Under the pieces are notes generated by a model, which saw nothing but the letters and a program-made list of their open reading frames with translations, had not been told where the DNA came from and searched no databases. Shown piece after piece: positions 9,914 through 24,824 of a stretch of DNA of 64,000 nt. Source of the stretch: Bacteroidota bacterium (lineage in GTDB: Bacteria; Bacteroidota; Bacteroidia; Bacteroidales; UBA4417). Numbering within the stretch: the first letter of the stretch is position 1; each line of letters starts with the position of its first letter. The DNA is taken from NCBI GenBank assembly GCA_013376995.1, contig JACAAZ010000005.1:186001-250000 (forward strand). Reading direction: 5' to 3'. Both the position numbers and the translations under genes were made by a program.

Positions 9914-10915
9914 ATGAAGATACTACTCACTATTTTTTTGATAATTCTGAGTTTGCAGTTCCTTGCCCAGAATCCAAGGCCTGAAGATTTTGGATTCAGG
10001 CACCTGCAAATGATGTATAAGGGTGATTCTGTCGATATTTTATTAAAATCGAAAGCAGGAGAGGAGTTTATAAGAAAACCGTTATTCTTGTTTTGCCAGG
10101 GGAGCCTGCCCCAACCTTTGATCAAGACCGATGGCAACCAGGCTTATTCGGTTTTCCCTTTCAACACAGATAGTCTTGTGAAAGATTTTCACCTGGTAAT
10201 CATAAGCAAGCCAAATATCCCGATTATTGCCGATGTTAATTCGCTTGGAACTAACTTCGTTTACCTGGACCCTGCTACTGGGAAATTTCCCAGGGCTTAT
10301 TCAGAACTCAACTTGCTGGATTACTATGTTGACCGGGATGAGGCAGTGATAGGATTTTTGTTAAAATTGCCCTTTGTTGCCAATACTGCACTAACAGTAG
10401 CAGGACATTCCGAAGGTAGTACAATTGCGGCTAAACTGGCAATGAAATCAAAGCGGGTTACTCACTTGATTTATGCCAGTGGTTGCCCGGTGGGCCGAAT
10501 GCTATCTATTGTTGAGAGAGACAGGTCGATGGAGGAGGATACTGATTCTACCCGTTTTGCCGAATCAGATTTTGATTACTGGGAAAGTATAGCAGGTAAT
10601 AAGGAAAATATGGATGATTCATATGGAGATACCTTTAAGGCGACATATGACTTTTCATATCCTCCGATTAACTACCTCCGTGAATTAAAGATACCTGTCC
10701 TGGTTTGTTATGGAACCAAAGACTGGAGCGCTCCTTTTAATGATTATTTAAGGTTCGAGATGATCAGGCAAAAGAAGAAGAATTTTACATTCAAAGCCTA
10801 TATCGGACTGGAGCACAATTTTTTTCCGCTGGATAAGCAAGGCCGTGCTAATCAGGAAATATTAAATTGGGATAAGGTTGCTGCAGATTGGCAGGAGTGG
10901 ATCCGTAAGAATTGA
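9914..10915 (+). CDS. Exported alpha/beta hydrolase
   Basis: Signal peptide at residues 1-18 (ending FLAQ), then an alpha/beta hydrolase fold. The nucleophile elbow is AGHSEGST (Ser near residue 169), the acid is probably the Asp in CYGTKDWSAPF, and the catalytic His is in GLEHNFFPLD near the C-terminus, so a full Ser-Asp-His triad is present. Substrate class cannot be told: esterase, peptidase and cutinase-like activities are all possible. There is no T9SS sorting domain, so a periplasmic location is likely. It begins 9 bases after the M14 gene and may be cotranscribed with it. Confidence 0.8.
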   Translation: MKILLTIFLIILSLQFLAQNPRPEDFGFRHLQMMYKGDSVDILLKSKAGEEFIRKPLFLFCQGSLPQPLIKTDGNQAYSVFPFNTDSLVKDFHLVIISKPNIPIIADVNSLGTNFVYLDPATGKFPRAYSELNLLDYYVDRDEAVIGFLLKLPFVANTALTVAGHSEGSTIAAKLAMKSKRVTHLIYASGCPVGRMLSIVERDRSMEEDTDSTRFAESDFDYWESIAGNKENMDDSYGDTFKATYDFSYPPINYLRELKIPVLVCYGTKDWSAPFNDYLRFEMIRQKKKNFTFKAYIGLEHNFFPLDKQGRANQEILNWDKVAADWQEWIRKN

Positions 10916-10931
10916 GTTCAAGTAAGCAGCA

Positions 10932-10959
10932 GGCAGTAGGCGGTAGGCAGTAGGCAGTA
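10932..10959. repeat. Four tandem GGCAGTA-type heptamers
   Basis: Four 7-bp units (GGCAGTA, GGCGGTA, GGCAGTA, GGCAGTA) flanked by degenerate AGCAG copies on both sides, just past the hydrolase stop codon. Slippage-prone non-coding repeat. Confidence 0.7.
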
Positions 10960-10982
10960 AGCAGAATCCAATAACCAATAAC

Positions 10983-11070
10983 TTACTTCTTATAATCATT
11001 AATCACAATTTCCTGTTTGCAGAAATCCTGTTCTGCTGCCTGTGAGTTTGAGCAAACGATAACAATGTGG
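10983..11070 (-). pseudogene. Remnant 3' end of a second copy of the ABC ATPase gene
   Basis: The minus strand encodes about 26 residues plus a stop that match the C-terminus of the ABC ATPase at 11775-12398 (from IVIVCSNSQAAE to INDYKK) with one amino-acid change (His to Gln). Over 84 bases I count nine differences, eight of them silent third-position changes. That pattern indicates divergence while the sequence was still under coding selection, not a recent copying event. Homology stops near 11070, and an in-frame stop at 11082-11084 closes the frame. The fragment and the intact gene flank the GxxExxY cassette. It cannot make a functional protein. Confidence 0.75.
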
Positions 11071-11111
11071 CTTTCATGTTTTCAAGGCCGTCGCCGGTGT
11101 TTATAAAATAA

Positions 11112-11671
11112 ATGCCACAAAGGCACAAAGACACTAAGATTCACAAAGATTTTCCTAATTTTACATTTCTTTTTTATATGTTAAATTATTCTATTTCAAT
11201 TATTATGGAAACATCAGAAAAACACGATGGTAAACGGGGTAAGGAACATCTCCCTATTCCTGAATTTGTTGACAATCTTGCAAAGCAGGTAATTGATGCC
11301 GCCTTCAAAGTGCATTATAATCTTGGGCCTGGTCTCCTTGAGAAAGTGTATGAAGCTTGCTTTTGCTATGAATTACAGAAGAAAGGCTTGAACTTTCAGA
11401 GACAGGTTGATATTCCAATAACCTATGATAATTTGGTATTTAAGGAGGGGTTAAGGCTTGATGTAATTATCGAAGATAGCATCATTTGTGAGCTCAAAGC
11501 AATAGAAACAGTTAATCCGGTTTGGAAGGCACAAGTTTTAAGTCATCTTAAGCTTACAGGAATACGCTTAGGATTTCTAATCAATTTTGATGTTCCAAGA
11601 ATTAAGGAAGGTGTAACCCGAATTGTTCTTTAACCTTTGTGTTACTTTGTGCCTTCGTGTCTTCGTGGCAT
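11112..11671 (+). mobile_element. 560-bp GxxExxY cassette bounded by 27-bp inverted repeats
   Basis: The left end (11112-11138, starting ATGCCACAAAGGCACAAAG) and the right end (11645-11671, whose complement starts ATGCCACGAAGACACGAAG) match at 22 of 27 positions as inverted repeats. Each end is built from short CACAAAG/CACGAAG units. The only gene inside is the GxxExxY protein. No transposase is encoded and I see no clear target-site duplication. The symmetrical ends and small cargo suggest a mobilizable unit. How it moves is unknown. Confidence 0.6.
11205..11633 (+). CDS. GxxExxY family protein (PD-(D/E)XK nuclease-like fold)
   Basis: A 142-residue protein of the GxxExxY family. The naming motif is at Gly43-Leu-Leu-Glu46-Lys-Val-Tyr49, and the nuclease-like signature follows at Asp86 and Glu96-Leu-Lys98 (DVIIEDSIICELKA). 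The family is assigned to the PD-(D/E)XK superfamily from sequence similarity; to my knowledge no function is firmly established. I chose the ATG at 11205 because the open frame upstream to 11112 is a translation of the left inverted repeat. The same family is known to occur in intervening sequences and repeat-flanked cassettes, consistent with the inverted repeats here. The gene stop lies 11 bases before the right repeat. Confidence 0.85.
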   Translation: METSEKHDGKRGKEHLPIPEFVDNLAKQVIDAAFKVHYNLGPGLLEKVYEACFCYELQKKGLNFQRQVDIPITYDNLVFKEGLRLDVIIEDSIICELKAIETVNPVWKAQVLSHLKLTGIRLGFLINFDVPRIKEGVTRIVL

Positions 11672-11774
11672 CACTATCGCACTTGGAAGAGTAAGGCACT
11701 GTTAGTTTCAAAAATTTATAGGGAAATTTGCAGAAAGTTGCAGATATAGAAAGAGTTAGATTGAATTTTCTTTC

Positions 11775-12398
11775 TTATTTCTTATAATCGTTGATCACAA
11801 TTTCCTGTTTACAGAAATCATGTTCTGCTGCCTGGGAGTTTGAGCAAACAATTACTATCCTGTCTTCCCGGTTTGACAGAAGTAGTTCCCTGAACCAGTC
11901 TATTCCTTGCTGATCCAGGTTTGAGGTGGGTTCATCAAGAAGAACAAGAGGGGTGTTGCTTAGGATAGCCAGGGCAAGCTTAACTCTCTGTTTCATGCCT
12001 GAGGAAAAGTATTTGATAGGCTTGTTGCGGCTTCCTGTCAGGGTTGTAGCCTTTATCACCGCCTCTTCATCCATGTTATTCCGGAATTTCTTGAACTGAT
12101 GGTGGAAACGGACCATCTCAGAAAGAGTAAATTCTTCCAGCAGTTCAAGGTAGGGGCCGCTGTAAGAAACATGGCGAAAGAAATCATCAGGCTCAAGCAC
12201 TTTGCCATCCAGATGATAATTTATTTTACCGGTACTGGGATGAAGATGGCCTGAAATGATCTGTAGCAATGTGGATTTGCCAGAGCCATTGGAACCGAGG
12301 ATGGCATATGCATTACCGCTTTCAAATTCAAAGTCAAGGCTCCGAAAGATCCATTCATAATTGTATTTCCGGCCTATATTCTCCAGGATGATCTTCAT
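11775..12398 (-). CDS. ABC transporter ATP-binding protein (stand-alone)
   Basis: A single nucleotide-binding domain of 207 residues. Walker A is GSNGSGKST, the signature motif is FSSGMKQRVKLAL (SSGMK in place of LSGGQ) and Walker B is LVLLDEPTSNLD. I start it at the ATG at 12398; an in-frame TTG two codons earlier is less likely. No permease gene adjoins, so the partner must be encoded elsewhere. The position directly after lpxA on the same strand (24-base gap) suggests a link to envelope lipid or LPS handling, but that is inference. The C-terminus is duplicated as a remnant at 10983-11070 on the far side of the GxxExxY cassette. Confidence 0.9.
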   Translation of the reverse strand: MKIILENIGRKYNYEWIFRSLDFEFESGNAYAILGSNGSGKSTLLQIISGHLHPSTGKINYHLDGKVLEPDDFFRHVSYSGPYLELLEEFTLSEMVRFHHQFKKFRNNMDEEAVIKATTLTGSRNKPIKYFSSGMKQRVKLALAILSNTPLVLLDEPTSNLDQQGIDWFRELLLSNREDRIVIVCSNSQAAEHDFCKQEIVINDYKK

Positions 12399-24804: not shown

Positions 24805-24824
24805 ATGCCACGAATACACGAATT
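24805..24824 (+). repeat. Solo copy of a cassette-end-like repeat
   Basis: ATGCCACGAATACACGAATT matches the outward-reading right end of the GxxExxY cassette (11645-11671 complement) at 17 of 20 positions. It lies in the 236-bp gap between the acylphosphatase and mnmD genes with no partner copy nearby. The rest of that gap holds nothing I recognise. Confidence 0.45.

Follow-up and report, generated by a model that had tools for sequence, protein, structure and literature searches.

We find that a small gene of the GxxExxY family and the inverted ends that bracket it very likely form one mobile unit. At one site in the Bacteroidota genus g62, the gene and its ends are present or absent as a single block bounded by GCCAC and GTGGC, and across relatives the end letters follow the clade of the protein and its C-terminal loop, such that ends and protein vary together. 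The best explanation, in our judgment, is a minimal autonomous one-gene element whose nuclease would recognize its own end units and also act on gene-less copies. We lean toward this reading by a modest margin only, and no transposition, binding or cleavage has been observed.

The element was studied in the window, by which we mean the whole 64,000-nucleotide stretch of DNA that was analyzed and to which all window coordinates refer; its host genome is a 5.05-Mb draft in 43 contigs. The cassette spans 11114-11669. Its left end (11114..11148, plus strand) consists of three 8-bp units beginning GCCAC-N-AAG, followed 3 nt on by a fourth unit, CACAAAG, and its right end (11635..11669, minus strand) is an inverted copy that terminates in GTGGC and adjoins the stop codon, as established by direct reading and a unit scan. 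Written in full, the ends are GCCAC-N-AAG-N-CAC-N-AAG-N-CAC-N-AAG. The left end ATGCCACAAAGGCACAAAGACACTAAG and the reversed right end ATGCCACGAAGACACGAAGGCACAAAG are identical at 22 of 27 positions, and each of the five differences coincides with an N of the repeat unit CAC-N-AAG-N. The arm alignment scores 22 over 40 columns, a value reached by 3 of 2,000 random placements of the same geometry (mean 8.0) that were drawn within the window without removing overlaps with the element itself. A sequence-only reading had described symmetrical 27-bp ends with 22 matches, which held exactly, and had missed the fourth unit on each side, 3 nt off (left run 11116-11148, right run 11635-11667). It had also described a single PD-(D/E)XK-like gene with no transposase between the ends, and this held as well: GxxExxY is the only gene there, and known transposases are absent by the open reading frame (ORF) list and profile searches.

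The GxxExxY ORF (11112..11633, plus strand) encodes 173 amino acids, with an alternative start at 11208. Its ATG at 11112 joins a flanking AT to the initial G of the end (ATG/CCAC), and the left end is therefore translated (MPQRHKDTKIHKD). The element is intergenic, with a hydrolase gene on one side and an ABC gene on the other, and does not lie in an rRNA gene. An Rfam scan of window positions 10900-11900 returned no match, nor did PADLOC or PHROGs for the window gene; a search for vehicles of the element gave no phage match and only seven distant matches to plasmids.

The window protein matches TIGR04256, the GxxExxY family (6.8e-41, 139.3 bits, cut-off 35), and PF13366, PDDEXK_3 (1.3e-38, 132.4 bits, cut-off 22), with the domain encoded at 11277..11630 on the plus strand. 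The motif G-x-G-x-x-E-x-x-Y and residues D62 (codon 11460-11462), E72 (11490-11492) and K74 (11496-11498), all on the plus strand, are invariant in 34 of 34 aligned sequences. A structure model (pLDDT 89) has as its best match in the PDB the Cas4 protein SSO0001 (Z 9.3, rmsd 4.6, 100 residues), followed by restriction enzymes and Hjc (Z 6-8 for both) and lambda-type exonucleases. The family profile matched no PDB sequence, and the fold assignment rests on the model. Most family members carry Q-x-x-x-Y; the window copy has H in place of Y. By the criterion of a core fold with D...ExK, as predicted by the model, the window protein is a PD-(D/E)XK nuclease of the Cas4/RecB-like kind; nuclease activity itself is inferred, without biochemistry. 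A published pipeline called a GxxExxY domain where another tool called cas4 (PMC8934634), which is consistent with a Cas4-like fold.

The same ends occur at the loci of relatives. We retrieved the 80 proteins closest to the window protein in a public genome collection, using a profile built from close relatives and assigning lineages by record title. They span about ten phyla-level groups: Bacteroidota, Deltaproteobacteria (Desulfobacteraceae), Nitrospirae/Nitrospinae, KSB1, Dadabacteria, WOR-3, Neomarinimicrobiota, Sedimentisphaerales (Planctomycetota), Ignavibacteria and Calditrichaceae. Shared inverted ends at other GxxExxY loci, which had been named as a test of the sequence-only reading, are present: window-type ends lie on both sides in 67 of 80 relatives and on at least one side in 78 of 80. 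The conserved end letters are GCCAC, the next C[A/T]C and AA[G/A], with the intervening bases free. Scored as inverted repeats, the ends at the gene reach a median of 22, compared with a mean of 10.2 for control positions at the same loci (Wilcoxon p 9e-14). In many loci, the left end sits at a fixed spacing of 68 or 70 bases from the domain, and the right end lies just 3' of the stop codon. The in-frame ATG/CCAC translation of the left end recurs in 16 relatives and in the g62 elements of G086, G114 and G125. Stop codons appear to be avoided completely in the translated arm, and we do not treat this as evidence because the selection of loci was circular.

Beyond these closest relatives, we assembled a wider set of 82 GxxExxY loci from family members of this genus and genomes of other lineages. 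At least three units of the form C[A/G]C-N-[A/G]A-[A/G/T] lie beside the gene in 65 of these 82 diverse loci, compared with 3% of control positions, and the classes of ends differ by clade (CACNAAG, CACNAAA, CACNGAG, CGCNAAG, CGCNGAG and CRCNGAT). In one copy, L270, the inverted repeat is perfect over 25 bp. The window's own genome holds eight GxxExxY genes, most of them within short arms whose sequence varies from copy to copy. Another GxxExxY clade (L006, L278 and L282) has flanking repeats of the AATCCTG type that fall outside the C[A/G]C-N-[A/G]A grammar. The arms of L143, L148, L165, L168 and L174 are interrupted at GTG by mini-palindromes such as TCCGCCTCAGGCGGAT, and G045 has a different insert of 22-24 bp at a similar place within arms.

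Arms also occur without a gene. In genome-wide searches of the window's own genome, the arm pattern scored 66 exact, overlapping hits versus 0 for the reversed pattern, and there were 33 exact three-unit arms versus two genes of the window clade. These arms occur singly, as palindromes in L-loop-R or R-spacer-L order, or in tandem arrays with R-to-L gaps that cluster at 9-15 bases, and some genes have a palindrome copy on each side, in direct orientation. Across 118 Bacteroidota genomes, arms were present in 9 of 10 with the window clade versus 13 of 108 without it; GxxExxY copy number in the Bacteroidota surveyed reaches a dozen per genome. The sequence-only reading had inferred multiple insertions in this genome from a related solo end at 24805-24824. 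Real solo ends are common elsewhere in the genome, as counted above; the example itself is unconvincing, being a two-unit CACGAATACACGAAT run of another class (CACGAAT) with no partner.

Several arrangements of gene-less arms stand apart. Three contigs of G153 (C15, C27 and C43) contain long tandem arrays whose arms all lie on one strand, with periods of ~49-110 bp and no window-clade gene. G045 carries a 220-250-bp element (L190-L197, L202) with 18-bp IS-like terminal repeats (AACCTGAGTTCGGGATAA) and an arm palindrome inside; its copies are up to 97% identical, and the palindrome is hitchhiking in a MITE. Locus L297 has two direct arm-bearing repeats (1652-1788 and 2497-2630), and its relative L299 has one and lacks the intervening ~700 bp, the outcome expected if the repeats recombine.

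Empty-site alleles in relatives, another prediction of the sequence-only reading, were found in five species of g62. Eight species of this genus share a common gene neighborhood at one site. In G086, G114 and G125, the site is filled by 439 bp, GCCAC to GTGGC, with a GxxExxY gene; in G098, G189, G160, G190 and G129, only 30-55 bp separate the flanks, compared with 473-475 in the filled species. None of the five empty sites contains an arm or palindrome, and the ends therefore belong to the inserted unit. The empty site of G160 holds TTGCCA, which is possibly a scar. Between G086 and G125, the element is 78% identical and the flanks are 69-81% identical; as element and flanks are equally diverged, the insertion is old and not recently active. 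Its absence elsewhere in g62 reflects losses or a long-lived polymorphism, and the direction is unsettled. The junctions are AT-rich and diverged, with no long target duplication visible, and none could be defined. In a second synteny comparison, in Salegentibacter, the gene and arms are missing in 14 of 14 relatives, yet other genes fill the site, and for this reason we did not count it as a clean empty site. A comparison in Marinifilum had no usable relative.

These sites bear on a homing explanation, in which the nuclease would cut gene-less palindromes and host repair would copy the gene into the loop. In its favor are the many gene-less palindromes that carry such ends, the genes between two direct palindrome copies, and the lack of both a transposase and a clear target duplication. 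Against it, the five g62 empty sites have neither arms nor a palindrome, so at this one locus the ends arrived with the gene; moreover, the gene overlaps one end with its start codon and adjoins the other with its stop codon. We consider homing unlikely.

The protein and the ends change together in sequence. On a tree of the 82 proteins, end class changes 10 times, compared with a mean of 27 in shuffles (minimum 22), and within the window clade, the ends switch between AAG and AAA five times versus 16 in shuffles. The two arms of one locus agree (rank correlation 0.76). The switch follows a short C-terminal loop, encoded in the window at 11583..11612 on the plus strand (NFDVPRIKEG), where I-K is the type paired with CACNAAG ends and N-I-G is paired with CACNAAA. 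An N-I-G loop, after NFNV, occurs at 15 of 15 clear AAA loci, and every clear AAG locus that has the loop shows I-K or similar there (one I-R). Three ambiguous loci have K, K and N as loop residues, and the arms of one I-N copy are mixed (four G, four A). A forecast of the loop from genome-wide arms, recorded before the genes were retrieved, was correct in six of six further genomes, and in two more genomes, the loop was consistent with their own arms.

In the genomes compared, gene-less palindromes match the type of the resident protein. When gene-adjacent arms are left out, the share of remaining arms with G at letter 7 is 0-38% across six N-I-G genomes versus 56-100% across four I-K genomes. 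Base composition cannot account for the difference: G109 and G095 have 35% and 31% G+C at free positions, and their letter 7 is G in 10% and 95% of arms, respectively. One caveat is that only a few independent switches may underlie the covariation, which could possibly reflect co-inheritance, because the proteins are short and their tree is poorly resolved, with only one or two switches on well-supported branches. A whole-family, column-wise search for further specificity residues found associations, with too few independent contrasts. That the protein reads its own ends is likely, an inference made without binding data.

This coupling weighs on the rival view that some other transposase, such as an IS200/RAYT-type HUH enzyme, mobilizes the ends in trans, with GxxExxY as a passenger. 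The excess of gene-less palindromes over genes (33 arms versus two genes in the window's own genome) supports that view, as do the genomes with arms and no clade gene and the occurrence of some Y1_Tnp in 19 of 20 tested genomes. Against it, the single-contig genome G090 has the gene and nine arms with no Y1_Tnp, arms were found at 0 of 30 Y1 loci (Y1 being the only such family surveyed), and the end letters track the GxxExxY clade and loop. We regard this alternative as unlikely. Between the two possibilities raised in the sequence-only reading, a nuclease that moves itself or an enzyme acting in trans, the clade- and loop-tracking ends and the Y1 results favor the first. Its label of the gene as cargo is probably wrong, because the gene appears to encode the enzyme of the element itself.

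A further signature lies in the free fourth base of the unit. In arms separated by a gene, free bases match in 114 of 335 cases versus 106 expected, which is chance; pairing at N, sought as a sign of an RNA hairpin between gene-flanking arms, was therefore not seen. Gene-less palindromes, counted once per locus, behave otherwise: free bases match in only 31 of 200 cases in the L-loop-R form versus 61.7 expected (z -5.0), and in 28 of 125 in the R-spacer-L form versus 41.6 expected (z -2.9). In the gene-less palindromes counted, then, every fourth base is kept mismatched wherever arms can fold together, which suggests that the palindromes fold in the cell. The cause is inferred, and it is likely to be one of two: either perfect palindromes are eliminated, or the mismatched hairpin serves as substrate.

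These counts also bear on the possibility that GxxExxY is a host-beneficial nuclease, acting in defense or RNA processing, and that the repeats beside it serve as signals for regulation or RNA processing. The intact gene with its invariant catalytic residues and the frequent translation of the left end speak for it. Against it stand the dozens of ends without a gene, the absence of the unit from syntenic sites, the lack of any Rfam or PADLOC match and the non-complementarity of the ends at every fourth base, and we consider it very unlikely.

In the one-gene element that we favor, the nuclease would bind the units of both ends, or the folded-back palindrome, without reading every fourth base of the unit, and would cut at the outer GCCAC/GTGGC borders. 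Host repair or replication would then seal donor and target, and the same nuclease would mobilize gene-less palindromes in trans. That GxxExxY is the mobilizing enzyme of its element is, on balance, the better bet, with both cleavage and joining inferred. Among the points against the model, no lone PD-(D/E)XK nuclease is known to join strands, and 13 of 108 genomes have arms without a window-clade gene. A bolder reading, for which we see no clear tilt either way, is of a large, cross-phylum superfamily of one-gene elements for which a Cas4-like PD-(D/E)XK nuclease would be the sole enzyme of transposition. A short C-terminal loop would read an end code specific to each clade, and the nuclease would also drive REPIN-like gene-less palindromes.

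The nearest known kind is the REPIN/RAYT system (PMC2817692, PMC3733652), from which the element differs in enzyme class. Both feature short scattered palindromes that outnumber the enzyme genes, a cognate enzyme gene bordered by those repeats and a match between enzyme type and repeat type, and the proposed service of gene-less palindromes in trans is analogous to the one that RAYT transposases are thought to perform for REPINs. The RAYT enzyme, however, is an HUH Y1 transposase rather than a PD-(D/E)XK nuclease, and the GxxExxY arms are made of 8-bp tandem units without a GTAG tag, with the gene and two arms forming one compact unit. Insertion sequences and MITEs share terminal inverted repeats, one gene, gene-less derivatives and syntenic presence/absence, whereas the GxxExxY element lacks a DDE, HUH, tyrosine or serine transposase, its ends are degenerate tandem units and its target duplication is undefined. 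With Cas4/RecB-like nucleases (solo-Cas4, MGE-Cas4; PMC5704561), GxxExxY shares the fold, the D/ExK site and, in most members, Q-x-x-x-Y; it differs in having a core of ~120 amino acids with no conserved Cys cluster in the alignment, in not lying beside cas1/cas2 in the window and in being tied to its own inverted ends.

Other one-gene units offer looser parallels. Homing endonucleases are likewise tiny and without a transposase, but the GxxExxY element is not in an intron, and its g62 empty sites have no recognition palindrome. Intervening sequences (IVS) of 23S rRNA are also tiny one-gene units bounded by inverted repeats; unlike them, the GxxExxY element is not in an rRNA gene. The IVS protein is a four-helix bundle, not known to be related to GxxExxY. 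Integron gene cassettes (attC) similarly place single genes beside imperfect palindromes whose mismatches are apparently selected, and occur in tandem arrays. In contrast to these, no tyrosine integrase or attI was noticed in the fetched GxxExxY loci (an unsystematic observation), and the GxxExxY ends lie on both sides of the gene and vary with the gene's own protein.

GxxExxY is a widespread, uncharacterized family of small nucleases. In the open-access literature searched, we found no link between it and mobile DNA, and no paper mentioning GxxExxY addressed its function; subscription journals and database family descriptions were outside the scope of this search. If GxxExxY drives its own element, it would represent a class of mobile DNA without known transposase chemistry and would account for the abundant CACAAAG-type repeats in Bacteroidota and other phyla. 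It may also offer a readable protein-DNA code, inferred without binding data, in which I-K or N-I-G in the loop of a ~120-residue core corresponds to the letter G or A.

Two further repeats lie close to the cassette in the window. An 85-bp direct duplication (~88% identical) flanks the element at 10982-11066 and 11774-11858 and derives from the 3' end of an ABC-transporter gene; we set it aside as a candidate target duplication, its copies not being contiguous with the element ends. Positions 10921-10980 hold 8-bp repeats of the GGCAGTAG type, which are numerous in the window's own genome and occur in other families of the order as well.
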